A stretch of 49,062 bases of DNA from the IMG/VR virus record IMGVR_UViG_3300044612_001598, positions 1 through 49,062 of that record. The stretch is one strand, 5' to 3'. Both the position numbers and the translations under genes were made by a program. The notes beneath the pieces were generated by a model. It had not been told where the DNA came from, did no database searches, and saw nothing but the letters and a program-made list of their open reading frames with translations. The stretch comes from a virus. Shown piece after piece: positions 10,163 to 25,008 of the stretch; position 1 is the stretch's first letter, and the number at the start of each line of letters is the position of its first letter.

Positions 10163-10187
10163 CCTGAGCATGATTTCAAACTGCTCA
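10163..10187 (+). repeat. 3'-UTR hairpin element, copy 1
   Basis: CCTGAGCA...AAACTGCTCA; TGAGCA pairs with TGCTCA. Lies 10 bases after the stop at 10153. One of seven copies in the window. Confidence 0.7.
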
Positions 10188-10331
10188 AATTTTGGCCCGA
10201 GTGATCCCTCGGCGCTGACGGCGTGTCGTACACAGGTTATCCACAGGCTTACTTTTGTGAGATTTATCACATAGAAAATGTCCGTTATGCCCTATTTTGG
10301 ATTTGATTTTGTCAGTGAAAAATGGTACGCT
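10188..10331 (+). promoter_or_regulatory. Early control module for 10378
   Basis: GC hairpin GCCCGAG/CTCGGCGC near 10195; DnaA-box-like TTATCCACA (10237-10245); perfect TGTGA-GATTTA-TCACA (10256-10271); ATGTCCGTTATGCCC box; TTGTCAG (10309-10315), N10, TACGCT (10326-10331). Confidence 0.6.
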
Positions 10332-10377
10332 TACATAGTAATAAGTTAATCAAGCAAAAAAGAAAGGCAGGCATAAA

Positions 10378-10608
10378 ATGTCAGCACTTGTTTATACAAC
10401 ATCAGCCCTACTAGAGGGAAAATACTATCGTTCACGCTCACGCAGACTTGAAGGAATTATTCAGGAAGCGGAGATTGCTCCAGAGATTTACTATGGAGAA
10501 AACGATACCGCTTATCGCGTTCGTGTTCGTCCTCAATTTGGAGATAACCCTAAGTCTTGGGGTAAAGATTTTTGGGCAGTAGTCGCAGTAAGAAAGGAAA
10601 ATGTCTAA
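10378..10608 (+). CDS. Small hypothetical protein
   Basis: 76 residues, beta-rich and Arg-rich in the middle (RSRSRRLEG). Strong AAGAAAGG upstream; the stop is shared with the next start (TAATG). First gene of a six-gene coupled chain to 11624. Confidence 0.6.
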   Translation: MSALVYTTSALLEGKYYRSRSRRLEGIIQEAEIAPEIYYGENDTAYRVRVRPQFGDNPKSWGKDFWAVVAVRKENV

Positions 10609-10730
10609 TGGGATACATTGAGATTTTTAGAATTGACAATGAGGGGGCAGGTTGGATAGACTTGTCTCAGGCAACAGATAAAGAATTGCTAGACCTAGAA
10701 ATAGGTTTATTTCAGGAAGGGGCTATCTAA
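10608..10730 (+). CDS. Small hypothetical protein
   Basis: 40 residues (MGYIEIFRIDNEGAGW start), acidic. TAATG junctions on both sides give the main support. Confidence 0.5.
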   Translation: MGYIEIFRIDNEGAGWIDLSQATDKELLDLEIGLFQEGAI

Positions 10731-10882
10731 TGGCTAAGATGAAAACACTATACACAGAAATAACTACTTGCGACCTATGCTATGGTACAGGTTGGTTATA
10801 CTTTGGAAATGGCGAGGACTTTGATACAGAGTCTTGCGATTGCAACCCACATCAATTATTTATCACTAAGGAGAATGACTAA
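10730..10882 (+). CDS. Small DnaJ-type zinc-knuckle protein
   Basis: 50 residues with CDLCYGTG and later SCDCNP, like one half of the CxxCxGxG zinc modules of DnaJ. TAATG overlap at both ends. Confidence 0.55.
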   Translation: MAKMKTLYTEITTCDLCYGTGWLYFGNGEDFDTESCDCNPHQLFITKEND

Positions 10883-11100
10883 TGAATGAATACCTATACT
10901 CAGTTACTACTACTAACGATAGTAACACTAGCCCTGATTGGGTTGGTCGTTATGCAGATGCTTTATCTGCCGTTCAGGTTTTTGAGAGATTTGTAGACCA
11001 CGGAATGGCTAATGAATTTCGTACAGTTAATTTATCAGAGCCGTCAGGCAAAATGCATACAAAAATTTTGTATCGTAATGGAAACGTAGGGGGTAAGTAA
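10882..11100 (+). CDS. Small hypothetical protein
   Basis: 72 residues, mixed alpha/beta; coupled to the previous gene by TAATG and abutting the next. No family recognised. Confidence 0.55.
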   Translation: MNEYLYSVTTTNDSNTSPDWVGRYADALSAVQVFERFVDHGMANEFRTVNLSEPSGKMHTKILYRNGNVGGK

Positions 11101-11385
11101 ATGGGAAGTGTTACAGCAATTGGATTAGCAGATAGCGTCCTTGATTTAGAAACACAATTGGCGTATCACTTGCAGGGTAATCACTATCCTCCAGTACCGC
11201 TATCTATGGTACAACCTTGCATAGAGGCTATTGACGCATACTATGATGAGGACTATGAAAGATTTATTGCTATGCCTGAAGGCGTATTCTATAAGGGAAT
11301 GAGCCACGCACCAGCGAGAGCAATTGTAGACCAGCACCACCTATCTTGGTTTATTGACCCAGCAGATGAATACGGAGATGAATAA
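11101..11385 (+). CDS. Hypothetical protein
   Basis: 94 residues, acidic, with a His-rich C-terminal part (SHAP, DQHHLSW). Starts right after the previous stop and overlaps the next start. Unknown function. Confidence 0.6.
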   Translation: MGSVTAIGLADSVLDLETQLAYHLQGNHYPPVPLSMVQPCIEAIDAYYDEDYERFIAMPEGVFYKGMSHAPARAIVDQHHLSWFIDPADEYGDE

Positions 11386-11624
11386 TGTCTGATACAATGA
11401 TTGCTATGGATTTAATACACGCTGATAACTTAACGCCAGATCAATTGATGCTTGGTGATTTGATAAAGATTGAAGATGACATCGTTGAAATTATTTTTAT
11501 TGAATGTGATTCAACGGGAGATAACTATGACATACAAACTGAAAACGAATTTGGTGAAAAAGAAATTGTGCAATTTGCTTACACTGATTTAATTCCGTTG
11601 TATGTTTTTATTGATGACAACTAA
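11385..11624 (+). CDS. Small acidic hypothetical protein
   Basis: 79 residues, strongly acidic, beta-rich (DLIKIEDDIVEIIFIE). Possibly a DNA-mimic-like protein by charge alone, which is weak evidence. Last gene of the chain, followed by a GC hairpin. Confidence 0.55.
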   Translation: MSDTMIAMDLIHADNLTPDQLMLGDLIKIEDDIVEIIFIECDSTGDNYDIQTENEFGEKEIVQFAYTDLIPLYVFIDDN

Positions 11625-11829
11625 TTAATTTTTGGGGCCCGAGGAATTACTCGGCGCTGATGGGCGTGTCTGTGGATAACCCTGTGGATACTCATCAGTA
11701 ACCAATATAAAATTTCTTTAAGATGAGCCATTTTCTTTTCCCCAAATTTTGAGGCGGGAAAATTTTTTGTGATCTTAATCACACAATTTAGATTTGACAT
11801 TTTTAGTAGATGTGTGTTAGTATTACTAT
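11625..11829 (+). promoter_or_regulatory. Control module and leaderless promoter for 11830
   Basis: GC hairpin GCCCGAG/CTCGGCGC near 11640; DnaA-box-like TGTGGATAA (11671-11679) and TGTGGATAC (11683-11691); perfect TGTGA-TCTTAA-TCACA (11768-11783), extended to TTGTGA...TCACACAA; then TTGACA-N18-TAGTAT ending 6 bases before the ATG at 11830. Confidence 0.6.
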
Positions 11830-11976
11830 ATGAAGAAAACAAATGAGGAATTACGCAGGCTTATGGAACTAAGGCGTTCTAACGCTGCCTCTGCCGTACC
11901 CTCAAAGAAGGCTTACAACCGCAAAAAATGTCAGACCCAAATGCTACAATTAAAGAAAACAAAGGAGACCCCCTAA
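11830..11976 (+). CDS. Small basic protein, leaderless start
   Basis: 48 residues, very rich in Lys and Arg (MKKTNEELRRLMELRRS start). TAGTAT ends 6 bases before the ATG. The stop is shared with the next ATG (TAATG), and an AAAGGAG for that gene lies inside it. Possible nucleic-acid binder by charge. Confidence 0.5.
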   Translation: MKKTNEELRRLMELRRSNAASAVPSKKAYNRKKCQTQMLQLKKTKETP

Positions 11977-12155
11977 TGGCCAATATGTACGAAGATGAAA
12001 TGTTTGATGAGTACTACTCAACAACCTGTCCTGAATGTCAAGAAAATGCGGTAGACGCATATGAAGAAAAATGCACTCATTGCTTACTGGAGGAATTGTC
12101 CGCTACTTACAACGAAGACATTGCTCTAGAAATGAGTCTAGGCCTTGACTACTAA
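11976..12155 (+). CDS. Small acidic zinc-finger-like protein
   Basis: 59 residues. CPECQ near residue 18 and CTHC near residue 36 form a four-Cys zinc-ribbon pattern in an acidic protein. Start set by TAATG coupling and an AAAGGAGA ribosome site. Confidence 0.6.
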   Translation: MANMYEDEMFDEYYSTTCPECQENAVDAYEEKCTHCLLEELSATYNEDIALEMSLGLDY

Positions 12156-12879
12156 TACACTTAAACTAAAACGCTCTAACGATAGAAAGGTGGCTAACCT
12201 TGTCACAAAAAATGGAAAACAGGCTGCAATCGCCAACACTTTTGGATTACCTGCTGGAAAGGCTTTCTCGTGCCCTGGTGCCACTAGCGTATGTGAAAGT
12301 GTATGCTATGCAGGAAAACTTGAAAAACTCTTCAAAGGCGTAAAGGCTAACCTTCTACACAATTGGGACCTGCTTAAGGACGCTGATCAATTAACTATGG
12401 AGACATTGTTAACTGAAATGATTAACGAATTCCGTGCAGACTGCGTAAAGAAAGACGCTCCTATGCTATTCCGTATCCACTGGGACGGTGACTTCTTTAA
12501 CGATGACTATACCAACGCCTGGAAGAATGTAATCAATAAAAATACTGATATTCAATTCTGGGTATACACACGTGTGAGATCTGCTGCACTTATTCTTAAG
12601 GATGTATCTAATCTATCATTGTACTTCTCTGCAGATAGCGAGAATGTTAAAACTGCCGTGGATCTAAAAATTAATAGCGGTGTGCGTATGGCATACCTTG
12701 CTAAGAATTTTGCTATTGGCCAGGCAGATGTTAAAGAAATGATAGGTCGCCCTGCTGCTAAGTGTCCTGAGAATAATAAACAAATTCCACTTATCTCAAC
12801 TAATGGTAGCGCTTGCGTTTCTTGTTCATTGTGTGTATACTCTAAGAGTGATATTATTTTTTCTGCGAGTAAAAAGTAA
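12145..12879 (+). CDS. GP88-family protein
   Basis: 244 residues. FGLPAGKAFSCPGATSVCESVCYAGK near the N-terminus and a C-terminal ACVSCSLC cluster match the GP88 family, named after a mycobacteriophage gene product. A central HWDGDFFNDDY and TRVRS pattern and the conserved Cys resemble radical-SAM or metal-dependent layouts, but the biochemical role is not known to me. A TTG start at 12145, overlapping the previous gene by 11 bases, is used because no ATG fits the conserved N-terminus (LKLKRSNDRKVANLVTKNGK). Confidence 0.75.
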   Translation: MTTNTLKLKRSNDRKVANLVTKNGKQAAIANTFGLPAGKAFSCPGATSVCESVCYAGKLEKLFKGVKANLLHNWDLLKDADQLTMETLLTEMINEFRADCVKKDAPMLFRIHWDGDFFNDDYTNAWKNVINKNTDIQFWVYTRVRSAALILKDVSNLSLYFSADSENVKTAVDLKINSGVRMAYLAKNFAIGQADVKEMIGRPAAKCPENNKQIPLISTNGSACVSCSLCVYSKSDIIFSASKK

Positions 12880-12948
12880 ATGAGTTTTTGGTTTTATTTA
12901 CTCATGATACTAATCATAATGGTTAGCATGCTAGGAGGTTCAGGTTAA
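12880..12948 (+). CDS. Very small membrane peptide
   Basis: 22 residues forming one hydrophobic helix (MSFWFYLLMILIIMVSMLGG). Directly abuts the GP88 stop. It resembles the 32-residue peptide closing the 8142-8808 set in position and opening (MSF). Low confidence due to length. Confidence 0.35.
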   Translation: MSFWFYLLMILIIMVSMLGGSG

Positions 12949-13224
12949 TCCCTGAATTTTTCCTCGGGGGCAGGACTGGTCATTTGTCAAGTCCAACACG
13001 CAGGTTTACGATGTGATGTTTATCACCCCCAGATTTTGGCACAGGATTTGTATTTTTTGTATTTTTCTGTTAAAATTGTATTATAAGCAAGAAAGCCTAG
13101 TGACTCAAATCACATAGATAATGTCTCACATTTTGAGATTATTTGGAAATGGATTTGTATTTCTTAGATTTTTTTGCTACACTTAATACATAAGCAAAAC
13201 CAACCTAACAAAAGGAGAAACAAA
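12949..13224 (+). promoter_or_regulatory. Control module for 13225
   Basis: TCCCTGAATTTTTCCTCGGGGG hairpin remnant; palindromes TGTGA-TGTTTA-TCACC (13012-13027) and AGTGA-CTCAAA-TCACA (13099-13114); two similar promoters starting GGATTTGTATTT: TTGTAT-N17-TAAAAT near 13048 and TTGTAT-N17-TACACT near 13154-13182, the latter serving 13225. Confidence 0.55.
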
Positions 13225-13392
13225 ATGACAGTAGCAACAGCAACATACAAGGTGGGCGACCTCTACACTTCACAGAAGTCAAAGGTGACAGGAACAATCT
13301 TGGAAATCGCACCATCAAAGACAGGTGACACAGTTCGTGTTAAGTTAGATGTAAATGGCAACACACGCTGGACAACTTGGACGGCTAAGTAA
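13225..13392 (+). CDS. Small hypothetical beta-barrel-like protein
   Basis: 55 residues. KVGDLYTS...KVTGTILEI...DTVRVKLD...TRWTTW suggests a small SH3/KOW-like beta-barrel. ATG chosen by the AAAGGAGAAA ribosome site. Function unknown. Confidence 0.6.
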   Translation: MTVATATYKVGDLYTSQKSKVTGTILEIAPSKTGDTVRVKLDVNGNTRWTTWTAK

Positions 13393-13406
13393 TCTAATTA
13401 CTTATT

Positions 13407-13432
13407 CCTGAGCAAGAATTAAAAAGGCTCAA
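13407..13432 (+). repeat. 3'-UTR hairpin element, copy 2
   Basis: CCTGAGCAAGAATTAAAAAGGCTC; GAGC pairs with GCTC. 15 bases after the stop at 13392 and directly before the TTGTCAG promoter. Confidence 0.65.
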
Positions 13433-13433
13433 C

Positions 13434-13456
13434 TTGTCAGACCTACCCCCTATACT
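13434..13456 (+). promoter_or_regulatory. TTGTCAG-type promoter for 13488
   Basis: TTGTCAG (13434-13440), N10, TATACT (13451-13456). Same geometry as the promoters of 8142, 9071, 10378, 14251, 14899 and 16249. Confidence 0.65.
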
Positions 13457-13487
13457 ATAAATAACCCAAACAGAAAAGAGAAACCCA

Positions 13488-13910
13488 ATGGCACGACAGA
13501 AAGCAATCTCAGTAAAGATAGCAACACCAAAGGTAATCAAGGCACTAGAGCAAGCACTTGCTACACTAGAAGTCAATTACACATCACAAGAAGCAAACGA
13601 AGCGAAGTATCAGAAGCAACACGAAAAGTGGAAAAAGGAACTTATTGACTATGCCGTAGCAAACATCAAGAAGGCAGAAAACTTCCGCACTAACTTCCGT
13701 TCTTGGAACAATCAACTCAACATTGACTTTGACCTAACAGTATCAGAAAAGGACTTGCCTAAAGAGCCTGTAAAGGATTTTGAGTCAATGTCTATCTATA
13801 ACTATCGTGAGCAGAAAGAGGAAATCTCTAATGCTATTCGTATTCTAAAGATGACAGATGAGGAAACAGTTTCCACATCAACTTATCAAGCGGTGGCTCG
13901 CTACCTATAA
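13488..13910 (+). CDS. Hypothetical helical protein
   Basis: 140 residues, mainly helical and charged with a likely coiled coil in the first half (ALEQALATLEVNY...KQHEKWKKELIDYA). Purine-rich ribosome site AAAAGAGAAA. Unknown; a structural or nucleic-acid-associated role would be speculation. Confidence 0.6.
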   Translation: MARQKAISVKIATPKVIKALEQALATLEVNYTSQEANEAKYQKQHEKWKKELIDYAVANIKKAENFRTNFRSWNNQLNIDFDLTVSEKDLPKEPVKDFESMSIYNYREQKEEISNAIRILKMTDEETVSTSTYQAVARYL

Positions 13911-14250
13911 TTAGGGTAGGAGGCTCAGAGCCTCTCCTAAAACGACCTGAGTATGTCGCTAAACTGCTCACACAATTAAATAATTGGGAGTGGGTTTCAA
14001 ACTAACCTAGGTGCCTGCTCCCTTTATCTTTCTCCCCTGCGTTCTACGCTATTTATAGCAAATGTCCCCTGGGGGGATTTCGCCAGGCTGATTAGGGCGA
14101 TCATAGAAATACTATAGAGCAAGGCTCCTGCAGGCCTAAAGAAGCAGACATCCTGAGCAGGATCCAAAAAGGCTCCCCGCAAGGGTCCTTGACAATTGTC
14201 AGTGGCCAGTAGTATAATTAAATTAACCAACAAACAGAAAGAGGCCCCCA
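13911..14250 (+). promoter_or_regulatory. Intergenic region with two hairpin copies and promoter
   Basis: GAGGCTCAGAGCCTC inverted repeat after the stop; hairpin element copies at 13946-13970 (CCTGAGTA...AAACTGCTCA) and 14152-14175 (CCTGAGCAGGATCCAAAAAGGCTC); then TTGACA near 14189 overlapping TTGTCAG (14196-14202), N10, TATAAT (14213-14218). About 180 bases between the hairpins (13971-14151) have no gene and could encode a short RNA. Confidence 0.55.
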
Positions 14251-14670
14251 ATGGACCAAACAACAGAAGATAAAGTAGTAAACGCAACAGAAGAATTTCT
14301 TCGTGATTCTCTTGCAAAAGCAACGTTGCGTGTAGCACAACTTGAAGAGCACATTCAAAAAGTAACTCAGCGCTCATATGGTGAGGCTGCAGAGCGTAAC
14401 CGTATGCGTAACGAAATGCAAGAGTGGACCTTGGAAGCAATGGAGCACGGAACAATCGATGAGTCTACTGCAGAAGAAATTGCAAACATTTGCGGTTTTG
14501 AATTAACAAAAGAATTTGAATTAGAAGTTGAGGTTCAATATTCTATTACCGTTAATGCACGTAGTGAAGAAGAGGCAAAGAACTTAATCTATGATATTGA
14601 TTTTGATTCAGTTTCTTATCCTGAAGGGGTAACCTATTTGTCATCCAGTGTTGACAGAATAGATATTTAG
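14251..14670 (+). CDS. Hypothetical protein
   Basis: 139 residues: a helical N-terminal half with coiled-coil character (LRVAQLEEHIQKV) and a beta C-terminal half with YSITVNARSEEEAKNLI, a small repeat-like module also seen in the protein at 31408-31992 (YELPINAESEEDALEKS). Function unknown. Confidence 0.6.
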   Translation: MDQTTEDKVVNATEEFLRDSLAKATLRVAQLEEHIQKVTQRSYGEAAERNRMRNEMQEWTLEAMEHGTIDESTAEEIANICGFELTKEFELEVEVQYSITVNARSEEEAKNLIYDIDFDSVSYPEGVTYLSSSVDRIDI

Positions 14671-14688
14671 TAGGGGGCTACTAATAAA

Positions 14689-14713
14689 CCTGAGCACGTT
14701 TAAAAACTGCTCA
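14689..14713 (+). repeat. 3'-UTR hairpin element, copy 5
   Basis: CCTGAGCA...AAACTGCTCA, 18 bases after the stop at 14670; TGAGCA pairs with TGCTCA. Confidence 0.7.
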
Positions 14714-14865
14714 CCTTAAATTCCTTGAAAAATTTCCCCGAGGGGCCTGTGGATAACTTTTGTCAAATCGACACGCCGTTACGATGGGGTGATCTTTACC
14801 ACAATGTCCAATTTATCCCAATCTAACTATCCTGATTTGCATATGTCAGTCAGTCCTGCTATACT
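14714..14865 (+). promoter_or_regulatory. Control module for 14899
   Basis: CCCCGAGGGG palindrome near 14737; DnaA-box-like TGTGGATAA (14748-14756); weak palindrome GGTGA-TCTTTA-CCACA (14788-14803) followed at once by ATGTCCA; ATGTCAG (14843-14849), N10, TATACT (14860-14865), with TTGCAT just upstream as a possible -35. Confidence 0.6.
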
Positions 14866-14898
14866 TAAAATATCAACACAACAGAAAGAAGGAATATC

Positions 14899-15915
14899 GT
14901 GGCTCACGATTTAGAAACACAAAATGGCAAGACCTCATTCGCATCATTCCGTGAACCTGCTTGGCACGGATTGGGTACTGTATTCACAGAAGAAAAAACC
15001 ACAAAAGAAATGTTAGATTTGGCTAACCTTTCTAATTGGAATGTTCGCCTTGAAGATTTGGAAACCCCATCACATCTAACAAGCGATAAAAACTATCAGT
15101 ACGTTTTGCGTACTAATCCTACAGATTCAACACAGACAGACATTCTTGGTGTCGTTGGTGAGCGTTATCACGTTATGCAGAATGAAGATTTATTCTCATT
15201 TGGCGATAACATTCTAGATGGTGGCGGACGTTGGGAAACGGCTGGAGCAATTAAGGGTGGACGTGTCGTATTTGGTGCATTAGCACTAGAGCGTGAAACT
15301 GTCCTAGACCCTAGCGGTGTTGCAGATAAAATCAAAACTTATCTTCTAATCAACACATCACACGATGGTTCAATCGCTATTCAAGCAAGCATCACGCCAG
15401 TTCGTGTCGTGTGCGCTAACACTCTCAATCTTGCGCTTAATACAACACGCAAGAAGAATGGTGTCAAGCAATCTTTCAAGATTCGTCACACACAGACAGC
15501 ACAAGGAAAAATTCAAGTTGCTCGTGAAACTCTTGGGCTTGCTCATAAGTATATGGATTCTTTTGACCTTATGGCTAAGGCTATGATTGAAAAAGAAGTT
15601 TCTGCTAAGCAATTCAACGACATCATTCTTGCTGCATACCCAAAGCCTGAAAAGGATTCTAAGGGTGCTTTCAAGAAGTGGGAAAATAAAGTTGATGTCA
15701 TCAACGATATTTACACAGGCGAATTTAACGGAATGATTGCTGGTAATGCGTGGGGTGCTTTCAATGCACTAACAGAACGCCTTGACTGGTATCGTTCTGC
15801 TCGTGGTGGTTCTAACGAATCTATCCTTGCATCTGCATCTGGTTTTGACCCTGCTATCAACGCAGAAAAAAATCGTTTGCTAAAAATTGTGCAAAGCACT
15901 TTGCAAATTGCATAA
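14899..15915 (+). CDS. DUF932-type phage/plasmid-like protein
   Basis: 338 residues. The N-terminal FREPAWHGLGTVF and later SHDGSIAIQASITPVRVVCANTLNLAL motifs are those of DUF932 (phage/plasmid-like protein, TIGR03299), found in many large phages and plasmids. Its function is unknown; a DNA-metabolism link is only inferred from context. GTG start with GAAAGAAGGAA ribosome site. Expressed from its own TTGTCAG-type promoter and followed by a hairpin and tRNA-Asp. Confidence 0.85.
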   Translation: MAHDLETQNGKTSFASFREPAWHGLGTVFTEEKTTKEMLDLANLSNWNVRLEDLETPSHLTSDKNYQYVLRTNPTDSTQTDILGVVGERYHVMQNEDLFSFGDNILDGGGRWETAGAIKGGRVVFGALALERETVLDPSGVADKIKTYLLINTSHDGSIAIQASITPVRVVCANTLNLALNTTRKKNGVKQSFKIRHTQTAQGKIQVARETLGLAHKYMDSFDLMAKAMIEKEVSAKQFNDIILAAYPKPEKDSKGAFKKWENKVDVINDIYTGEFNGMIAGNAWGAFNALTERLDWYRSARGGSNESILASASGFDPAINAEKNRLLKIVQSTLQIA

Positions 15916-15926
15916 CTAAAAAAATT

Positions 15927-15950
15927 CCTGAGCAAGAATTAAAACTGCTC
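15927..15950 (+). repeat. 3'-UTR hairpin element, copy 6
   Basis: CCTGAGCA...AAACTGCTC, 11 bases after the DUF932 gene and 4 bases before tRNA-Asp. Could be a processing or end signal between mRNA and tRNA. Confidence 0.65.
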
Positions 15951-15954
15951 GCAA

Positions 15955-16028
15955 GGTTCCATAGATCAATTGGTTAGATCGCTACCCTGTCACGGTAGAG
16001 GCTACGGGTTCAAGTCCCGTTGGAATCG
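15955..16028 (+). tRNA. tRNA-Asp (GTC)
   Basis: 74 bases. Acceptor GGTTCCA pairs with TGGAATC (one G-T); anticodon stem CTACC/GGTAG with loop CTGTCAC gives anticodon GTC; T-arm GGGTTCAAGTCCC. Discriminator G fits Asp. CCA is not encoded. Confidence 0.93.
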
Positions 16029-16248
16029 CAAGCGTAAATGGGGCCCCGAGGGAATGTGATATAGGTCACATAATATTTCTAATAAAATAACTTTACGATA
16101 AAAGAATATTTTTCCTGGAATTTCTTTACGATAGGTTTGATTTTTTTCCCAAACCTTGCTACAATTAATATATAACCCAGTAACAGGAGATACCCATTTG
16201 TCAGTGCCCTCTGTTACACTTATAACATAACCCAAACAAAGGAAAGAT
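16029..16248 (+). promoter_or_regulatory. Control module for 16249
   Basis: GGGCCCCGAGGGA; perfect TGTGA-TATAGG-TCACA (16055-16070); TTTACGATA twice; TTGATT-N17-TACAAT near 16137-16165 with CAAACC/GGTTTG motifs like those at 19080-19760; then TTGTCAG (16198-16204), N10, TACACT (16215-16220). Two promoters seem to be stacked. Confidence 0.55.
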
Positions 16249-16995: not shown

Positions 16996-16998
16996 TAT

Positions 16999-18438: not shown

Positions 18439-18463
18439 GGAGTGGGTCCCCTAGACTAACAGG

Positions 18464-18519: not shown

Positions 18520-18533
18520 AAGAGGAGATACCT

Positions 18534-18773: not shown

Positions 18774-19059
18774 GACAGGCATACTAGGTCAACTATGGAT
18801 TGATTTCCGTGATGATGAAAACTTTAGTGCCTTTATGGATTACAATGACATTGGTGTTCCAATGGCATACTATGTAGCAGAAGGCCTGGTTAATGGTTTG
18901 ACAGATCTTGGTAAACAATATGTTGAAGAGAGCATCGATATGATGTTTAAACTATTAGAGATCACAGAGGCAGAGGTTGAGGAACTAGATGAAATTAATC
19001 TAACAGAAGTTCTTAACCTGGCCTATGAAAAGAAAAACTCTGGTGGGTCTCTGGGCTAA
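18757..19059 (+). CDS. Hypothetical acidic helical protein
   Basis: 100 residues, strongly acidic, helical. AAAGGA before the ATG. Ends just before a GGGCTAAAGCCC hairpin and the iteron region. Confidence 0.55.
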   Translation: MDFADKTGILGQLWIDFRDDENFSAFMDYNDIGVPMAYYVAEGLVNGLTDLGKQYVEESIDMMFKLLEITEAEVEELDEINLTEVLNLAYEKKNSGGSLG

Positions 19060-19079
19060 AGCCCCTGAGATTTCCCCCG

Positions 19080-19760
19080 AGGGCAAATCATATCAAATTG
19101 GACATATTGGACAAACCATATTTCCAAAAGATCATTACGAACCTTTAAAAATTTTTCCCCAAACCAGGGGTATTACGAAGGACAAATTCTTTTCCCCAAA
19201 CCTTATACCATACAAACCTTTATTTGTCAAACCTTAATATCAGGTGTATAATGTATTTATGACCCCAAGACACTTTGCAGAATATGCAAAAAGAGATCCC
19301 AAAGGCTATCAAGCATTCTCAGATAATATGTGGAATGGTTTTGTATCTATTACTAAGCATGTTCCTATAGTTAATAGGTTCTTCTCTTTCTCTCCCGCCG
19401 AGTTTCAGGTGGATCAAGAAACTGAAAATAAGATTACGAACGCCTAAAAATTTTTCCCCAAACCTGGCCGTTTTTGCCAGGGGATAAAGAGATTATATAC
19501 CAAACCACTAGTACTAAAACATAGACAAACCTTTTATCCTGATTTTTAAATATTTATCAAACCTTTATATATTTTTATTACGATTTATCGACATTTTCTC
19601 CTGATTTTGGGAGATTTTTTTATGCATAAAATGGGCTTGACAAACCATAATTTATAGGTTATAATGCCCAAACCATGCATATAAAGGTTTGACAGATATG
19701 AAGGTTTGTGGTAAAATGCGGCTATAAAGGTTTGGAGATATGAAGGTTTGGCCGTTAGAG
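19080..19760. repeat. CAAACC/GGTTTG iteron region, candidate origin
   Basis: About 15 copies of CAAACC or its complement. Those left of ~19675 read CAAACC and those right of it read GGTTTG, giving overall dyad symmetry. ATTACGA occurs five times, and AAAAATTTTTCCCCAAACC occurs twice (near 19147 and 19445). A small gene (19259-19447) lies within it; otherwise 19448-19893 has no gene. Iterons, AT-richness and adjacent DnaA boxes suggest a replication origin or partition site. Confidence 0.6.
19259..19447 (+). CDS. Small hypothetical protein, leaderless start
   Basis: 62 residues. TTGTCA-N17-TATAAT-N6-ATG supports this start over the GTG 15 bases upstream. Aromatic-rich (RHFAEYAKRDPKGYQAF). Sits inside the iteron region. 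Confidence 0.55.
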   Translation: MTPRHFAEYAKRDPKGYQAFSDNMWNGFVSITKHVPIVNRFFSFSPAEFQVDQETENKITNA

Positions 19761-19787
19761 ATTACGACCCCATCTATAAAAGGGCTC

Positions 19788-19820
19788 CCTAACCCACTTC
19801 CCTCCACTTCACTCCACTTC
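19788..19820 (+). repeat. CCACTTC pyrimidine repeats
   Basis: Four close copies of CCACTTC or CCACTTCC form a pyrimidine-only stretch. Such tracts can form unusual DNA structures. It lies between the iterons and the DnaA boxes. Confidence 0.6.
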
Positions 19821-19855
19821 TAGACTGTCTAATAATATAATCAGTAACATATTTC

Positions 19856-19875
19856 TGTGGATAACTTGTGGATAA
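19856..19875. other. Tandem DnaA-box-like sites
   Basis: TGTGGATAA at 19856-19864 and 19867-19875, two exact matches to the DnaA box (TTATCCACA on the other strand) two bases apart, next to an AT-rich stretch. Together with the iterons this is the densest origin-like signal in the window. Confidence 0.55.
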
Positions 19876-19893
19876 CTATGATACAATAATCCA

Positions 19894-20046
19894 ATGCACA
19901 AATTGGAATCATCATACAATAAGTTTATTCAGCCTACAGTAAGCATCCTATGCTTTGACTGTGGGGGTATGTATGAAATGCCATATGGGGTATCAAACCC
20001 TACATCCAAGTGTCCAAAATGCCAGGGGATCAAACCTCTTTTATAG
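19894..20046 (+). CDS. Small zinc-ribbon protein, leaderless start
   Basis: 50 residues with CFDCGG and CPKCQG, a clear zinc ribbon. TACAAT ends 6 bases before the ATG. Its end overlaps that of the convergent gene by 17 bases. Confidence 0.6.
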   Translation: MHKLESSYNKFIQPTVSILCFDCGGMYEMPYGVSNPTSKCPKCQGIKPLL

Positions 20047-20347
20047 CCTTATTGACCATACGGATCAAGGCCCTACGTGTTATCTTCGACGCATCAAAGG
20101 TCTCTGTGTATCCGCTTTGAGGCATATCCGCCTTATCCAGAAAGTGTCCATATCTTTCCCTTAGTGTTCTTAGTACTAGGGTTTCGACTGCTCTTGCCCT
20201 ATCCCGTTCGAAAAAATGCCAATACTTAATTAGTATCCAACCCTTGGTCCTATGGCTTGCAAACCTTCTTCCGCTTATATCTGATATACCTACCTTGACA
20301 GCCTTATGTAGTGGGCTGTATAGTATATATAAGACTGCTTCATCCAT
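20030..20347 (-). CDS. GIY-YIG-superfamily-like (T5orf172/Mug113-type) protein
   Basis: 105 residues from the ATG at 20347, which has TATAAT 6 bases before it. VLYILYSPLHKAVKVGIS, an Arg-rich helix (GRRFASHRTKG) and a downstream Glu (AVETLVL) follow the GIY-YIG order of Tyr, KxGxS, Arg and Glu seen in T5orf172/Mug113 domains. Likely a nuclease-like DNA-binding protein, possibly a free-standing homing-type enzyme. Activity not certain. Confidence 0.6.
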   Translation of the reverse strand: MDEAVLYILYSPLHKAVKVGISDISGRRFASHRTKGWILIKYWHFFERDRARAVETLVLRTLRERYGHFLDKADMPQSGYTETFDASKITRRALIRMVNKAIKEV

Positions 20348-20395
20348 AGACTCATTATACTTGACATACCCTGCTAATTTTGATATGATTGGTTT
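20348..20395. promoter_or_regulatory. Overlapping divergent promoters
   Basis: Plus strand: TTGACA-N17-TATGAT-N6-ATG for 20396. Minus strand: TATAAT-N6-ATG for 20347. Only 48 bases separate the two ATGs, so the promoters overlap and should interfere or be co-regulated. Confidence 0.65.
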
Positions 20396-20629
20396 ATGAT
20401 TACTAAAAAAAATAAAAAGCAAATGCACCAATACGAAGAGGATTTTGTCTTTGTCCTAGAAAACCTCAAAAATGATATCAGTAGATATCTTGATGTAGCC
20501 AAGTCTGAAGATGTATCTCATAATGATATTAGTAGGACTATTTCATTGATTAACTGGACTGCTAGAACAGTTGCAGAAAATAGGGATGAGTTAGAGTTTA
20601 AGATAATGTATGCTAAGGAGCAGTCATAA
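20396..20629 (+). CDS. Hypothetical helical protein, leaderless start
   Basis: 77 residues, charged and helical. Consensus-like promoter with the ATG at expected +1. TAATG overlap with the next gene. Confidence 0.6.
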   Translation: MITKKNKKQMHQYEEDFVFVLENLKNDISRYLDVAKSEDVSHNDISRTISLINWTARTVAENRDELEFKIMYAKEQS

Positions 20630-20844
20630 TGAAGGGTTCACTTTGTGCTTATAAGCGTGGAGAGCCTTACTTTACCAGTTATCATTGGTGTAATGAATGT
20701 CCACCTTCTGATGAATACCGTGCTCTTGAAAAGCAACAAAAACTAGACTGGGCTAAGGCCAATAAGGAAAGAGATGCTGCTTGGAAAAACAAGAATGCAA
20801 GAAGGATCAAGCATGACAAGTCATTGGCGGACAAGGGTTTCTAA
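20629..20844 (+). CDS. Small basic Cys-containing protein
   Basis: 71 residues. WCNECPP near residue 20 plus an upstream Cys may bind zinc; the C-terminal half is Lys- and Arg-rich, so nucleic-acid binding is plausible. Coupled start. Confidence 0.55.
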   Translation: MKGSLCAYKRGEPYFTSYHWCNECPPSDEYRALEKQQKLDWAKANKERDAAWKNKNARRIKHDKSLADKGF

Positions 20845-20924
20845 CCAATATTGCCCCTGTGGGGCATAGAAAGGTTTATAACTCCTATTTTGCGCCGAAC
20901 TTTAAAGAATGCTATAATTAAAAT

Positions 20925-21812
20925 ATGGAAAAAAATGCGAACATATTGAATATGCTTCGCTTAGAGATGTACAAAACTACTGTACTTAATAGGTACGGGA
21001 TGCCTTATGGTCCAAATATTATTATTGATCCTAAGACAAAGTACGTTACAAATTCCCTTGGATTTCGCACAGCAGAGTTTGACGATAAAACACCAGATTT
21101 TGTTTTTGCTGGATGCTCTCATACCTGGGGATGGGGAATTGATGATTCTTTAATTTGGGGCAATCGTATTGCAAAAACTATGGGGATAGAAACACGAAAC
21201 CTTGGCATTAGCAATGGTGCTATAACAACAATCATAGATAATCTAATTGCATACTTTGATAAATTTGGTAAGCCAAAAGTATTGTTTTGTTTGTTTCCAA
21301 GTTTAGCAAGAATGAATTTTTGGACCAATAGAAATGTTTTTATTGGAAGGCACGGTTTTGATTTTGCAAGAGATACTGCCGTTCCAAGTCAGGGTAACTC
21401 ACCGAAGTATTCACAAAAACCACATAAGTTGGAAGAGGTTCTAACCTCAGAACTACCAACTTTATTATCACTAAAATATATTTTAAATTTTGAGCAATAC
21501 TGCCTTTCTAATAATATTATTTTAAAATATTCATTTTGGGATCCAGTAGATGATCGGATGATGGATGGATTACCGCACAATAATAGTTATAGCGGGTATG
21601 TCAAATCTGATTCTGCCCTATGGGTCAGAGATGGTATTGTTGAAGTCTTTAATGGGTCTAAAGATTGTCACGCACCAACCAACGAATTGGAGCAGTACTC
21701 ATGGCTTCATGGAATGGATATAGAGTTATCAAGTTTACCCCACATAGGGGCACATAGACAGATTCACTATTATGAACTATTTCTTAATGAATATGGTAAG
21801 ATTTATTCATGA
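20925..21812 (+). CDS. SGNH/GDSL-type hydrolase-like protein (paralog A)
   Basis: 295 residues. DFVFAGCSHTWGWGI gives the block-I nucleophile Ser of the SGNH fold, followed by TRNLGISNG (block II Gly/Asn) and a C-terminal HIGAHRQIHYY that may supply the catalytic His. SGNH enzymes act as esterases or O-acyl editors on glycans and lipids. TTGCGC-N17-TATAAT-N6-ATG marks the start. Related proteins sit at 26703-27743 and 47813-48616. Substrate unknown. Confidence 0.7.
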   Translation: MEKNANILNMLRLEMYKTTVLNRYGMPYGPNIIIDPKTKYVTNSLGFRTAEFDDKTPDFVFAGCSHTWGWGIDDSLIWGNRIAKTMGIETRNLGISNGAITTIIDNLIAYFDKFGKPKVLFCLFPSLARMNFWTNRNVFIGRHGFDFARDTAVPSQGNSPKYSQKPHKLEEVLTSELPTLLSLKYILNFEQYCLSNNIILKYSFWDPVDDRMMDGLPHNNSYSGYVKSDSALWVRDGIVEVFNGSKDCHAPTNELEQYSWLHGMDIELSSLPHIGAHRQIHYYELFLNEYGKIYS

Positions 21813-21892
21813 AATTTATACTATTTTACTTAGAAAGGCTTGTTCGCTCTTTATTAAAGAAAAATAAAAAGAAAAAAGACTATATTTATTAA
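21809..21892 (+). CDS. Very small basic peptide
   Basis: 27 residues with a hydrophobic start and a Lys-rich end. ATGA overlap with the SGNH gene is the main support. Confidence 0.35.
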   Translation: MKFILFYLERLVRSLLKKNKKKKDYIY

Positions 21893-21917
21893 ACTACAAA
21901 CATGATATAATGATTAG

Positions 21918-22043
21918 ATGAAAAAGTCTAAATGTTATTTTTGCGACGAAGAAGCAACCCATTACGATATTGTAGTAAATCACGCCGAATGGGTGGTTGC
22001 GGATGTTTGCCTTTCCCACCTTTCTATGGGCCTTGTTTCCTAA
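21918..22043 (+). CDS. Small zinc-finger-like protein, leaderless start
   Basis: 41 residues with CYFCDEEA and VADVCLSHL. TATAAT ends 6 bases before the ATG. Similar layout (two Cys, then CxxH) to the hidden gene at 30831-30980. Confidence 0.55.
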   Translation: MKKSKCYFCDEEATHYDIVVNHAEWVVADVCLSHLSMGLVS

Positions 22044-22082
22044 CGCCTTGACTTATGCCAGCAATTCTGCTATCCTTAATGT

Positions 22083-22286
22083 ATGATCAATATGGAAATA
22101 CCAGATCCTTTTCAAACCTTTGTAGCCAAGAAATATGCTAACGCCAAAGGCTATGGCTATGATTTCTTTACTAAAGAATGGTCTTTTAAGTGTTCCTGTA
22201 AGGAAATGCTTTATGCTCCATCCCGCAAAATTATGACAAAGATTAGGTTGTTTCATACAAGAAATGAGTGCTTAGGTGGATACTGA
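22083..22286 (+). CDS. Small zinc-binding-like protein, leaderless start
   Basis: 67 residues with CSC in the middle and later H and C. TTGACT-N17-TATCCT-N6-ATG. Basic C-terminal half. Overlaps the next gene by 11 bases. Confidence 0.55.
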   Translation: MINMEIPDPFQTFVAKKYANAKGYGYDFFTKEWSFKCSCKEMLYAPSRKIMTKIRLFHTRNECLGGY

Positions 22287-22374
22287 AGAAGAGTTTGATC
22301 TAGAGTTTACTGTTGAAGAAATGATTAACCTTTATGGCATTAATAGCCTTGAAGATTTAGACAGAATTGACTAG
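22276..22374 (+). CDS. Very small acidic protein
   Basis: 32 residues from a GTG overlapping the previous gene. Strongly acidic. Low confidence. Confidence 0.35.
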   Translation: MDTEEEFDLEFTVEEMINLYGINSLEDLDRID

Positions 22375-22375
22375 A

Positions 22376-22498
22376 GTGAAGGCATATAAGATGACATGTA
22401 TTGTGTGTGGACTATCTAAAGAGTCAGAATGGTTTTGGAATTCTCATCAAACAATGTCTGACGGAAAGATATGGTGTGTAAATGCCAAGAGAGCCTAA
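22376..22498 (+). CDS. Small Cys-containing protein
   Basis: 40 residues from GTG 22376 (or 35 from ATG 22391), with CIVCG and a later Cys (WCVNA). Overlaps the next gene. Confidence 0.4.
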   Translation: MKAYKMTCIVCGLSKESEWFWNSHQTMSDGKIWCVNAKRA

Positions 22499-22598
22499 GA
22501 TTACGAAGATGGATTGGCGTTCCCTAGGCTACTGGCCTGTGTGGAAAGATGGAAAGAAAGTGTGGGTGCCACAGGATGAAAAAGATTCAAAAGACTAA
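22482..22598 (+). CDS. Very small Trp-rich protein
   Basis: 38 residues with four Trp (MDWRSLGYWPVWKDGKKVWV). Overlaps the neighbours on both sides. Low to moderate confidence. Confidence 0.4.
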   Translation: MPREPKITKMDWRSLGYWPVWKDGKKVWVPQDEKDSKD

Positions 22599-22797
22599 CA
22601 TACTTCCATTACGATGGATAGGTAATTTTTGTGGGGAGTTTGCTGGCAATCACCTTGTTAAGGCTATTGATTTAGATGAGGAATTAGATAGTAATTTAGG
22701 GTTTCGTTATAAATACCACGCAAAAATGTGGGTAATGCTTAATAAACCTTATGAGCGTTGGGGAACATACTATATTCTTGACAAAAACGAATGGTAA
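22576..22797 (+). CDS. Small hypothetical protein
   Basis: 73 residues from the ATG at 22576. Aromatic- and basic-rich (MWVMLNKPYERWGTYYIL). Overlaps the previous gene by 23 bases. No family recognised. Confidence 0.5.
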   Translation: MKKIQKTNILPLRWIGNFCGEFAGNHLVKAIDLDEELDSNLGFRYKYHAKMWVMLNKPYERWGTYYILDKNEW

Positions 22798-22812
22798 AGG
22801 TATAATTATATT

Positions 22813-22986
22813 ATGAGTATAGATGAAATGACATTACGAGAAGAGATTGCAAGGGCTATTGAAGCCATATCAATTGAAGAGTCTGTAACCAACGCAGTTG
22901 GTATGAGGATGCTTGCAGCAAAGGTTGCAAGAGGAGAAAATAACTATATGACAAGTATGTTTGAAAGACAGGAGGATTTCGAATGA
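22813..22986 (+). CDS. Small helical protein, leaderless start
   Basis: 57 residues, helical (EEIARAIEAISIEESV). TTGACA-N17-TATAAT-N6-ATG, the most consensus promoter in the window. ATGA overlap with the next gene. Confidence 0.6.
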   Translation: MSIDEMTLREEIARAIEAISIEESVTNAVGMRMLAAKVARGENNYMTSMFERQEDFE

Positions 22987-23072
22987 TTAGTGCACTATTG
23001 TTAATTCCAGCATTTATTTTAGGATATGCTGCCTGCTATTTTATTATGACTTATAATGTTAATCAGGATTGA
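22983..23072 (+). CDS. Very small membrane peptide
   Basis: 29 residues, one hydrophobic helix (ALLLIPAFILGYAACYFI). ATGA overlap upstream and a 17-base overlap with the next gene. Confidence 0.45.
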   Translation: MISALLLIPAFILGYAACYFIMTYNVNQD

Positions 23073-23523
23073 TACAAGGCCAACAGCCTACATCTTCGAT
23101 GTAGATGGAACTCTAGCCAATGTAGATCCATACATACATCTTGTTCGTGGCTCTAATAGGGACTATGAGGCTTTTCATGAGGCTTCTATAGATGCCCTGC
23201 CAAATGTAGATGTTGTTCAGATGTTAAATAATGCTGTTTCTGATAAACATGCAATACTTGTTGTAACATCAAGAAAAGAAAAATGGAGAGGTTTAACTTC
23301 TATGTGGCTTGCAAAAAATAATCTCAGGTCACACGCATTATTTATGAGGTCTGATGAAGATAATAGGCCAGACTATGAAGTTAAGAAAGACATCTTAGAT
23401 AAGATTGATAAGCATTGGAATGTTGTTCACGCAGTAGATGATAATCCAAATGTTATCAGATTATGGGAAAATCACAAAATTCCTACTACCAAGATTGGTA
23501 CCTGGGACGGGGACAAGTCTTGA
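23056..23523 (+). CDS. HAD-superfamily phosphatase (polynucleotide 3'-phosphatase-like)
   Basis: 155 residues. AYIFDVDGTLANVD gives the HAD nucleophile DxD; VTSRKEKWR is motif II and VHAVDDNPN motif IV, in the order seen in the phosphatase half of T4 Pnk-type polynucleotide kinases. No kinase domain is attached. Likely removes phosphate from nucleic-acid ends or nucleotides; substrate is inferred. Confidence 0.75.
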   Translation: MLIRIDTRPTAYIFDVDGTLANVDPYIHLVRGSNRDYEAFHEASIDALPNVDVVQMLNNAVSDKHAILVVTSRKEKWRGLTSMWLAKNNLRSHALFMRSDEDNRPDYEVKKDILDKIDKHWNVVHAVDDNPNVIRLWENHKIPTTKIGTWDGDKS

Positions 23524-23554
23524 CTTACAACGAAGAGAATGGTATGATTAGTCT

Positions 23555-23692
23555 ATGAGCAAACAAATTAAGAAGATATATAAGTGCAAGGAGTGTGAAA
23601 CTTCTATTACGATTGTAACAAAGGTTCACGAACTTCCAGAATCAATTATCTGTCCTTGTGACAATGTGGCAGAAAACCAAGTGACTAAATGA
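23555..23692 (+). CDS. Small zinc-ribbon protein, leaderless start
   Basis: 45 residues with YKCKECE and ICPCDN. TTGACT-N17-TATGAT-N6-ATG. ATGA overlap with the next gene. Confidence 0.6.
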   Translation: MSKQIKKIYKCKECETSITIVTKVHELPESIICPCDNVAENQVTK

Positions 23693-23841
23693 AAAAGTCC
23701 AACAACAAAGTATCTCAGCATAAAATTAAGAGAGCAAACAAAAACAAAAAAAGAATACAGTCCAAGCCTTATTTGTCAAGGTTTGAACGTAAGCAAAAAG
23801 CAATCAGAGAAGGAATTATCTTTGATGCGTTAAATTCTTAA
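23689..23841 (+). CDS. Small very basic protein
   Basis: 50 residues, over one third Lys/Arg (IKRANKNKKRIQSKP). Likely nucleic-acid or ribosome associated by charge. Coupled ATGA start. Confidence 0.5.
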   Translation: MKKSNNKVSQHKIKRANKNKKRIQSKPYLSRFERKQKAIREGIIFDALNS

Positions 23842-23862
23842 CAATTAGGTTTGGAGTTTGTT

Positions 23863-24006
23863 ATGATTGATCAAGACAAGTTAAATAAGATTCCAGAAGA
23901 AATAAAGTTATACATAATTAAAGAACACGTAAAGAAACAGTTCTATTGGACTGTAGGGTTCTTATCTTTTTTAGTTGGAACATTCTTTGGTTTATTAATT
24001 AAATAG
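23863..24006 (+). CDS. Small membrane protein
   Basis: 47 residues: charged N-terminus then one C-terminal membrane helix (TVGFLSFLVGTFFGLLI). GGAG 6 bases before the ATG. Immediately upstream of the tRNA cluster. Confidence 0.5.
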   Translation: MIDQDKLNKIPEEIKLYIIKEHVKKQFYWTVGFLSFLVGTFFGLLIK

Positions 24007-24012
24007 GGACTA

Positions 24013-24087
24013 GCACCAGTAGCCAAGTTGGTTAAGGCACCGAACTCATAATTCGGCTATTCGTAGGTTCAAGTCCTACCTGGTGTA
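24013..24087 (+). tRNA. tRNA-Met (CAT)
   Basis: 75 bases. Acceptor GCACCAG pairs with CTGGTGT (one G-T); anticodon stem CCGAA/TTCGG, loop CTCATAA. Elongator Met is most likely; a lysidine-type Ile(CAT) cannot be excluded from sequence alone. First of five clustered tRNAs. Confidence 0.88.
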
Positions 24088-24091
24088 CTAG

Positions 24092-24165
24092 ACATCTGTA
24101 ACTCAGTTGGTTAGAGTACCTGCCTTATATGCAGAGAGCCGAAGGTTCAAGTCCTTCCAGATGTA
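24092..24165 (+). tRNA. tRNA-Ile (TAT)
   Basis: 74 bases. Acceptor ACATCTG/CAGATGT; loop CTTATAT gives anticodon TAT, which reads ATA directly. That supports the AT-rich codon use of this phage. One mismatch at the base of the anticodon stem. Confidence 0.87.
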
Positions 24166-24169
24166 CGAT

Positions 24170-24243
24170 GCGGATGTTGCATATTGGTAGTGCCTCTGCC
24201 TTCCAAGCAGAAGGGGTGAGTTCGATTCTCATCATCCGCTCCA
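24170..24243 (+). tRNA. tRNA-Gly (TCC)
   Basis: Acceptor GCGGATG/CATCCGC, loop CTTCCAA giving anticodon TCC, and an encoded CCA at 24241-24243, unlike the other tRNAs here. Confidence 0.92.
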
Positions 24244-24244
24244 A

Positions 24245-24317
24245 GTCTCCATCGTCTAGTGGCCCAGGACTCTGCCCTTTCACGGCAGCAACACGGATTC
24301 GAATTCCGTTGGAGATA
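24245..24317 (+). tRNA. tRNA-Glu (TTC)
   Basis: 73 bases. Anticodon stem CTGCC/GGCAG, loop CTTTCAC (anticodon TTC); acceptor GTCTCCA/TGGAGAT with one G-T; T-loop TTCGAAT. Confidence 0.9.
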
Positions 24318-24321
24318 CTTT

Positions 24322-24394
24322 ACCTCTGTAGTTCAGTGGACAGAACGATGGACTTCTAAGCCATGCGTCGCAAGTTCGATTCTTGCCAGGGGTA
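24322..24394 (+). tRNA. tRNA-Arg (TCT)
   Basis: 73 bases. Loop CTTCTAA gives anticodon TCT for AGA/AGG; acceptor ACCTCTG/CAGGGGT. Last of the cluster; a TATAAT element follows before the Hsp20 gene. Confidence 0.92.
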
Positions 24395-24464
24395 CTTATG
24401 ATATAATATATTTGCCTGCCCAATAGGGGGGTAATTTAACTTATTCGCTTGAAAGGGGAATAAC

Positions 24465-24881
24465 ATGGTAACAAAGTACGCTATGGATCTATTCAATGAT
24501 CCTTTTTTTATTGGCTTTAACAGAGAGTTAAATCGCCTAAATACTGCACACAAAACAAACTCACAGTCATATCCTCCGTATGATCTTCTTAAACTAGATG
24601 AAGACACATATCAGATCTCTTTGGCTATTGCTGGTTTTTCAAAGGAAGATATTGATGTATCCGTAGATAATGGAACACTAATTATTAAGGGTGAGATTGT
24701 AGAAGTAACAGATGCAGAGGTAGTTCATAAAGGCATCGCAGGAAGAAAGTTCGTAAGATCTTTTGCACTGGGAGAATATATGGAAGTAACTTCTGCAGAA
24801 CTTAAGGATGGCATGCTGCATGTTCATGTAGTACGCATTGTTCCTGAAGAAAAGAAGCCTAAATCTATTAAAATTAAGTAG
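24465..24881 (+). CDS. Hsp20/alpha-crystallin small heat-shock protein
   Basis: 138 residues, typical length for the family. N-terminal LFNDPFFIGFNRELNRLN is IbpA-like. The alpha-crystallin core runs from DTYQISLAIAGFSKEDIDVS to an ELKDGMLHVHV...PEEKKPK end, with GxLxxxx equivalents. Such proteins hold unfolding proteins in solution; phage versions may help particle assembly or stress during infection. GAAAGGGG ribosome site. Promoter TATAAT near 24402. Confidence 0.92.
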   Translation: MVTKYAMDLFNDPFFIGFNRELNRLNTAHKTNSQSYPPYDLLKLDEDTYQISLAIAGFSKEDIDVSVDNGTLIIKGEIVEVTDAEVVHKGIAGRKFVRSFALGEYMEVTSAELKDGMLHVHVVRIVPEEKKPKSIKIK

Positions 24882-24907
24882 TATAATAGATAACATTCCG
24901 ATATAAG

Positions 24908-25008
24908 ACTTTAAAAGGTTTTACAACGGATGCTCCTATGAGTGGAGAGTTAGCAGGAGTCGAGTCTTCGTGGCTAATAGACCTGAGCAGTCGTCTATAA
25001 ACTGCTCA
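24908..25008 (+). ncRNA. Possible structured RNA ending in hairpin copy 7
   Basis: AAGACT pairs with AGTCTT around an inner CTCCT...AGGAG stem, then CCTGAGCA...AAACTGCTCA (24982-25008), the seventh copy of the 3'-UTR hairpin. No reading frame explains the region between Hsp20 and 25031. Transcript not proven. Confidence 0.35.

Follow-up and report, generated by a model that had tools for sequence, protein, structure and literature searches.

A small H-type pseudoknot behind stop codons in phages and in many bacterial phyla, with a possible role at messenger RNA 3' ends

What are the short repeated sequences that lie behind several genes of IMG/VR virus record IMGVR_UViG_3300044612_001598, and what function might they serve there? 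The window analyzed, i.e., the whole stretch of 49,062 nucleotides (nt) of this record (37% GC), was described in an initial annotation as harboring seven hairpins in 3' untranslated regions (UTRs), with TGAGCA/TGCTCA arms around a loop ending in AAA. A descriptor of the full structure detailed below returned exactly these seven matches, all located within positions 10159 to 25007, on the + strand and in intergenic DNA, whereas none is expected from dinucleotide shuffles for the three strict copies in the window. Across all loci studied (2.06 Mb), the same descriptor gave 309 matches, compared to 4 in shuffled DNA. Because the bare AAACTGCTCA half, with 2 mismatches allowed, was not enriched (54 occurrences versus 63 expected), it is the whole unit that represents the special part. 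The TGAGCA/TGCTCA pairing was retained, though as only one of two helices (P2), and the copies are, judged from sequence, near certain to fold as an H-type pseudoknot.

The simple hairpin with its AAA loop was abandoned in favor of this fold once the flanks of the copies were aligned. In a first viral scan, in which the pattern CCTGAG-N9-AAACTGCTC was applied to IMG/VR, the 3 to 4 bases ahead of CCTGAGYAN were, among the matches listed, nearly always complementary to those behind it (for example, cgaC..GTCG, ggaC..GTCC, ccaC..GTGG, and aatC..GATT). A second helix, P1, had thus been missed, in which the bases before CCTGAG pair with bases after it, such as AAATC/GATTT at positions 10159 to 10175. 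As the loop enclosed by P1 (CTGAGYAN) contains the 5' strand of P2, the resulting structure is an H-type pseudoknot. The element spans 26 to 31 nt in the window, where each copy belongs to one family with the consensus P1-CU-RRGYA-N-P1'-nnAAAC-URCYY, in which P1 comprises 3 to 5 variable base pairs (bp) and P2 is formed by RRGYA paired with URCYY past the A-rich loop nnAAAC. A minor AAAAGGCUC form is represented by two instances in the window, and the copies at 13407 and 14152 are of the AAAAAGGCTC variant, with a P2 of 4 bp.

Covariation in relatives, on whose presence the initial annotation had made its proposal depend, was found to be very strong, and we regard it as decisive evidence for the pseudoknot. 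In 140 distinct viral copies, drawn from among the matches listed, P1 pairs 1, 2, and 3 were formed in 99, 100, and 83% of cases, respectively, whereas column composition predicts 47, 39, and 43%; every one of the four Watson-Crick types was used. In a set of 75 distinct sequences, 96% of cells were paired (76% when shuffled and 28 to 40% when slid), double-sided changes numbered 135 (42 in shuffles), and the covariation score was 0.589 (0.205 when shuffled and at most 0.153 when slid), with compensatory change evident at all four P1 pairs and at three of the five P2 pairs. This set was gathered with part of the pairing required, and tests based on a relaxed P2 or on compensated classes are cleaner. 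When the outer two P2 pairs were not required, both were present in 168 of 170 copies, including 15 of the 17 which deviate from GA/TC. Across the entire viral collection, at least 120 stretches were of the compensated class CTGGGYA-N7-AAACTGCCC (GGGYA/UGCCC) and only 21 of the single-change class CTGAGYA-N7-AAACTGCCC (GAGYA/UGCCC, with an A.C mismatch); among the matches listed, at least three P1 pairs were formed in 117 of 118 distinct GGGYA/UGCCC sequences. Scans for other classes, performed with a spacer one base longer than standard, yielded a P1 of at least 4 pairs in 42 of 88 and 20 of 57 compensated sequences, versus 3 of 32 and 1 of 14 mismatched ones.

These data also specify which molecule folds. 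G.U pairs were common (C-G 51, U-G 18, and U-A 6 at one pair of the 75-sequence set), and since G.U is tolerated whereas A.C is not, it is the sense RNA that adopts the structure. The alternative of a mobile or recombination element acting at the DNA level, be it a repeat resembling repetitive extragenic palindromic (REP) sequences or miniature inverted-repeat transposable elements or a single-stranded DNA fold as suggested for STAXI, would agree with short dispersed repeats present several times per genome. It is nevertheless considered highly improbable, not only in view of this sense-strand signature but also because P1, although different in each copy of the window, is paired in all of them, and because orientation and position are fixed relative to stop codons.

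While P1 varies freely, strong conservation is seen in the RRGYA strand of P2 and in loops CU and AAAC, as would be expected of a binding or cleavage site for a protein acting on the transcript by processing or regulation. Such a protein could be an RNA-binding regulator of the phage or, on the host side, a ribonuclease (RNase) or ribosomal protein that is widely conserved. In line with such a site, a C-G first P2 pair is hardly seen: CAGYA/TGCTG, scanned with one extra loop base, was accompanied by a P1 of at least 4 pairs in 1 of 55 cases, and a purine seems to be required at the first P2 position. However, no single protein family was found to co-occur among the neighbors, a partner would need to be universal given that hosts span more than 10 phyla, and base triples could account for the conservation without any protein. 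Recognition by a protein is deemed rather unlikely.

The position of the element relative to reading frames is equally constrained. Where an upstream open reading frame (ORF) lies on the same strand, the distance from stop codon to P1 was 4 to 10 nt in 107 of 203 copies, with a mode of 6 and never less than 4; the separately collected GGGYA set displayed a mode of 5 to 6, a minimum of 4, and 4 to 10 nt in 52 of 89. In intergenic gaps of 150 to 250 nt, the median distances to the preceding stop and the next start were 11.5 and 148 nt, respectively. This hugging of the stop codon in long gaps, and its repetition in the GGGYA set, indicates that the element belongs to the 3' end of the upstream gene; in 31 copies the downstream neighbor is convergent. 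The initial annotation had placed most copies close to stop codons, which holds for five of the seven in the window (5, 11, 32, 14, and 7 nt from stop to P1) and fails for those at 14152 and 24982 (Table 1).

Such spacing raises the possibility that, with the stop codon in the ribosomal A site, the knot is positioned at the ribosome's entry channel for mRNA and alters termination, recycling, or forward sliding of the ribosome or, in another form of this explanation, shields a following transfer RNA (tRNA) or start site from ribosomes. The sharp 5- to 6-nt spacer with its hard minimum of 4, seen in two independent sets, would fit such an action, the spacers of recoding pseudoknots being close to this value, as would the location of the element directly ahead of tRNAs and ribosome-binding sites. 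On the other hand, the spacer exhibits no 3-nt periodicity, and many copies are located more than 20 nt from the stop. Readthrough is unlikely, as the upstream stop codon is mostly UAA (94 of 130 copies) and in-frame extensions past it are mostly short, of all lengths, and not conserved. A recoding stimulator was rejected on the same in-frame check, which revealed no conserved extended frame past the stop. An effect on the ribosome is, on balance, unlikely.

The view that the copies are structured, repeated RNAs in 3' UTRs rather than ordinary terminators was borne out, with a U-tract following none of the seven window copies. An unusual transcription terminator or pause element would be in keeping with the several window copies which have a stop codon on one side and promoter-like sequence on the other, with the U-run that often follows the element in lactobacilli, and with a Streptococcus phage in which a terminator-like hairpin occupies the same gene junction. 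Yet, of 181 viral copies, only 17 had five or more T residues in the 7 nt behind the element, as had 27 of 120 copies from genomes. Moreover, the whole gap is shorter than 100 nt in 73 of 164 codirectional junctions, leaving no room for a promoter, as between feoB and a porin gene of some Nautiliaceae, where the element lies 23 nt ahead of the porin start. Since the next start is often only about 20 to 35 nt away, the element can, judged from sequence, hardly be a terminator in general, and this explanation is very unlikely.

A further aspect of placement concerns tRNA genes. A same-strand tRNA is present within 60 nt downstream of 23 of 308 copies, compared to 0.56 expected, 21 of these being at 4 to 14 nt, a distance at which tRNA starts are approximately 40 times commoner than by chance; an upstream tRNA was found for 1 of those 308. 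Most cases represent the DUF932-tRNA-Asp junction as at 15923 to 16029, an order which recurs in relatives, and the other adjacent tRNAs include those for Arg, Gly, Gln, and Glu and more. The GGGYA set contributed four more at 3 to 6 nt downstream (Asn [two], Ile, and Tyr), versus 0.34 expected. RNase P cleaves at the 5' end of tRNAs, and a cut at such a tRNA would leave an mRNA end a few nucleotides past the knot, which in the case of the DUF932 mRNA would be 4 nt past copy 6. This adjacency, coupled with the G-poor flank behind the 3' strand of P2, constitutes the main, albeit indirect, argument for the function that we propose with a confidence just short of evenly balanced, namely, that the element may be a portable 3'-end cap which shields the upstream frame from 3'-5' exonucleases.

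Under this proposal, polycistronic phage transcripts would be cut downstream of the element, by RNase P at tRNAs and by other endonucleases elsewhere, after which 3'-5' exonucleases would be halted by the compact knot a few nucleotides past it. Within the knot, loop 1 probably lies in the deep groove of P2; the shallow groove of P1 would hold the A-rich loop 3. The upstream reading frame would thereby be kept intact and abundant, while the 5- to 6-nt spacer would represent the nearest approach to a terminating ribosome at which the knot is not opened by it. The fold, strand, 3' UTR placement, stop-codon anchoring, and tRNA adjacency are established by the sequence comparisons, the structure being demonstrated by covariation; the function is what we infer from them.

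Several observations speak against a cap. The conservation of the P2 purine strand and of the CU and AAAC loops goes beyond what a mere barrier needs and could mean a bound protein or ribosome contact, and the sharp 5- to 6-nt spacing fits action on the terminating ribosome equally well. About half of the copies are located 10 to 40 nt before a downstream start codon, such that an effect on that gene is possible, and three copies of the GGGYA set lie 13 to 14 nt after a tRNA, not before one. Many of the tRNA-Asp cases are orthologous, meaning that independent events number fewer than 23, and the placement counts rest on mechanical ORF calls. The cap and its rivals are not fully exclusive, and the roles named in the initial annotation, stabilization, processing, and protein binding, are all still candidates. 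A more specific proposal is advanced only tentatively: a minimal, triple-stabilized knot 5 to 6 nt behind stop codons may act, free of protein, as an exonuclease stop and/or ribosome bumper, constituting an undescribed family across phages and many phyla whose fold is shared, and perhaps exchanged, with pseudoknot 1 (PK1) of transfer-messenger RNA (tmRNA).

PK1 of tmRNA (RF00023) is the closest known fold, sharing a short P1, a loop 1 of approximately 2 nt, P2, a short junction, and a UAAAA-type loop 3. In several Nautiliaceae, PK1 also contains the sequence core of the element, CCTGAGCAAG...TAAAACGGCTC, and the family covariance model likewise matches tmRNA of several Nautiliaceae; ARAGORN placed 5 of 324 copies inside tmRNAs, all from this family. 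The PK1 of five Nautiliaceae loci (L269, L271, L273, L274, and L275) bears the CCTGAGCA...GGCTC core of the free-standing element, while PK1 is different in genome G004, also from this family. Elsewhere, including in hosts of free-standing copies, the topology of PK1 is the same but the sequence is usually not; the sequence shared in Nautiliaceae may reflect either descent or convergence. Unlike tmRNA, free-standing copies have no tRNA-like domain, tag frame, or resume codon, and neither ARAGORN nor Rfam detected a tmRNA in the window. According to a passage in PMC2481249, which cites Tanner 2006, Escherichia coli tmRNA can retain its activity when its PK1 is replaced.

Several other structured RNAs invite comparison. 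STAXI (RF01728) is a small pseudoknot found near mobile-element and anti-restriction genes (PMC2864571). It differs from the element in being tandem, in its occurrence in Enterobacteriales, and in its 153-position model; none of 10 element-bearing genomes or records scored above its covariance-model cutoff, and copies of the element in the window and in the other counted contigs are single and dispersed, not arranged two or three in tandem. The element is not itself a tmRNA or STAXI and, in all likelihood, not a terminator. The hairpins that stabilize 3' ends, such as REP elements, intrinsic terminators, and T4 intercistronic hairpins, are likewise structured RNAs behind stop codons that could block 3'-5' exonucleases; they are hairpins, whereas the element is a sequence-constrained pseudoknot family across phyla. 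Viral exoribonuclease-resistant RNAs are compact pseudoknots, larger than the element, that stop 5'-3' enzymes. Frameshift pseudoknots of the luteovirus type possess an A-rich loop 3 and a spacer of approximately 5 to 8 nt but depend on a slippery site together with an extended frame, of which no sign was found, the systematic check covering in-frame extensions. A phage mRNA pseudoknot is known from the gene 32 leader of T4 and T2 (PMC3014915); it lies 5' of a start codon and binds gp32, whereas the element lies 3' of stop codons, and model R1 gave no convincing match on T4 (best E value, 0.18).

Rfam 15, applied to the whole window at the gathering cutoff, reported tRNAs only, and no match at the element emerged when five motif-bearing loci and the copy at 24982 were searched at a relaxed E value, although short motifs can escape such scans. 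The literature searched contains no description of the element; the list of 224 motifs in Weinberg 2017 lay outside that search, and prior description is possible. The RNA family and its stop-codon rule thus appear to be undescribed, the H-type fold itself being of a known kind.

Far from being particular to the phage group of this window, the element is common both in phages of IMG/VR and in the genomes of bacteria from more than 10 phyla. When GTDB genomes were scanned, 107 of the 119 matches listed formed a P1 of 3 or more pairs. The record titles named Bacillota, Aminicenantes, Saccharibacteria and other Patescibacteria, Bacteroidota, Cyanobacteria, Chloroflexi, Actinomycetes, Proteobacteria, Planctomycetes, Spirochaetes, Omnitrophica, and Campylobacterota. 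Whole-genome counts mostly gave one copy per bacterial genome and one to six per viral contig, with zero for a reversed-pattern control. In Lactobacillales, 22 of 199 genomes matched, a pattern fitting prophages, with the junction of minor head and scaffold genes being a frequent location; Lactobacillus phages CR191 and AQ113 carry copies, and P7.1, LL-H, and Lj965 carry divergent forms. The divergent copy of LL-H (L264, positions 2412 to 2438) overlaps the annotated 3' end of ORF371, just ahead of the scaffold gene, and this end may be misannotated. Nautiliaceae genome G098 (L272) has nine matches, several of which are CCTAAGCA...TGCTT copies at intervals of approximately 0.1 to 2 kb; behind them come a ribosome-binding site and a short frame that is itself repeated.

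No common neighboring gene was apparent, the genes on both sides being diverse; those upstream include genes for Hsp20 and single-stranded-DNA-binding proteins. The best named relatives of the DUF932 gene of the window are from Streptomyces phages (approximately 53% identity), and Streptomyces phage NootNoot, which shares this gene, has no copy. No convincing copy was found in the Hsp20-bearing marine phages HTVC008M and P-SSM7 or in phages lambda, P1, phiKZ, SPO1, T4, and P-SSM2.

Additional features of the window are included in Table 1. The early + strand region (7742 to 16952) holds all 10 exact GTGAnnnnnnTCAC palindromes. They resemble Crp/GlxR binding sites, which suggests that a host Crp-family regulator may act on the phage promoters. 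Six perfect DnaA-box-like TGTGGATAA sites (0.64 expected) are mostly intergenic and doubled near 19.86 kb, beside a candidate replication origin, an AT-rich region in which AAACCT/AGGTTTG and TTACGA repeats are numerous and occur in either orientation. A palindrome-like CCCGAGGR element, present six times downstream of genes (0.47 expected) and often soon after a pseudoknot copy, perhaps corresponds to terminators without U-tracts. Directly behind copy 7 is a strong closed RNA fold with a 12-bp stem (-31.8 kcal/mol; z, -2.75) and no Rfam match, possibly a noncoding RNA.

Table 1. Pseudoknot copies and other features of the window
Feature	Position(s)	Strand	Helices or sequence	Context
Copy 1	10159..10186	+	P1 AAATC/GATTT, P2 GAGCA/TGCTC plus T-A	5 nt past stop (10153) of ORF 9641-10153
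Copy 2, AAAAAGGCTC variant	13404..13430	+	P1 ATTC/GAAT, P2 GAGC/GCTC (4 bp)	11 nt past stop of ORF 13174-13392; promoter-like TTGTCA..TATACT downstream
Small hairpin	13920-13934		GAGGC-TCAGA-GCCTC	Between stop at 13910 and copy 3
Copy 3	13943..13969	+	P1 CGAC/GTCG, P2 GAGTA/TGCTC	32 nt past stop (13910) of ORF 13488-13910
Copy 4 (14152 site), weakest, GGCTC variant	14150..14175	+	P1 ATC/GAT, P2 GAGC/GCTC	No same-strand ORF of at least 50 amino acids ending within ~240 nt upstream; then promoter-like TTGACA..TATAAT
Copy 5	14685..14712	+	P1 TAAAC/GTTTA, P2 GAGCA/TGCTC	14 nt past stop of ORF 14251-14670
Copy 6	15923..15950	+	P1 AATTC/GAATT, P2 GAGCA/TGCTC	7 nt past stop of DUF932 gene 14899-15915; 4 nt ahead of tRNA-Asp
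tRNA-Asp (gtc)	15955..16029	+		
Copy 7 (24982 site)	24977..25007	+	P1 ATAGAC/GTCTAT, 3-nt junction, P2 GAGCA/TGCTC	95 nt past Hsp20 stop (24881)
Palindromes	7742, 7893, 8973, 10257, 11769, 13013, 13100, 15158, 16056, 16939		GTGAnnnnnnTCAC	
DnaA-box-like sites	7978, 10237, 11671, 14748, 19856, 19867		TGTGGATAA	
Palindrome-like elements	8829, 11638, 12961, 14737, 16045, 19076		CCCGAGGR	
AT-rich region	19090-19760			Beside DnaA-box-like sites
Closed RNA fold	25031-25114		GUCCCACACAGG/CUUGUGUGGGAC	Directly behind copy 7

If the proposals outlined above are correct, phages and bacteria of more than 10 phyla would possess an overlooked regulatory RNA module, the oversight probably being due to its short size and to its pseudoknot, which nested RNA models see poorly. 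It would follow a sharp and testable rule, that of a knot 5 to 6 nt behind the stop codon, and would provide a simple account of how phages guard single frames within long transcripts, including beside tRNA genes. It would also represent a compact natural part that could stabilize mRNA 3' ends and would offer a new view on why tmRNA carries PK1.

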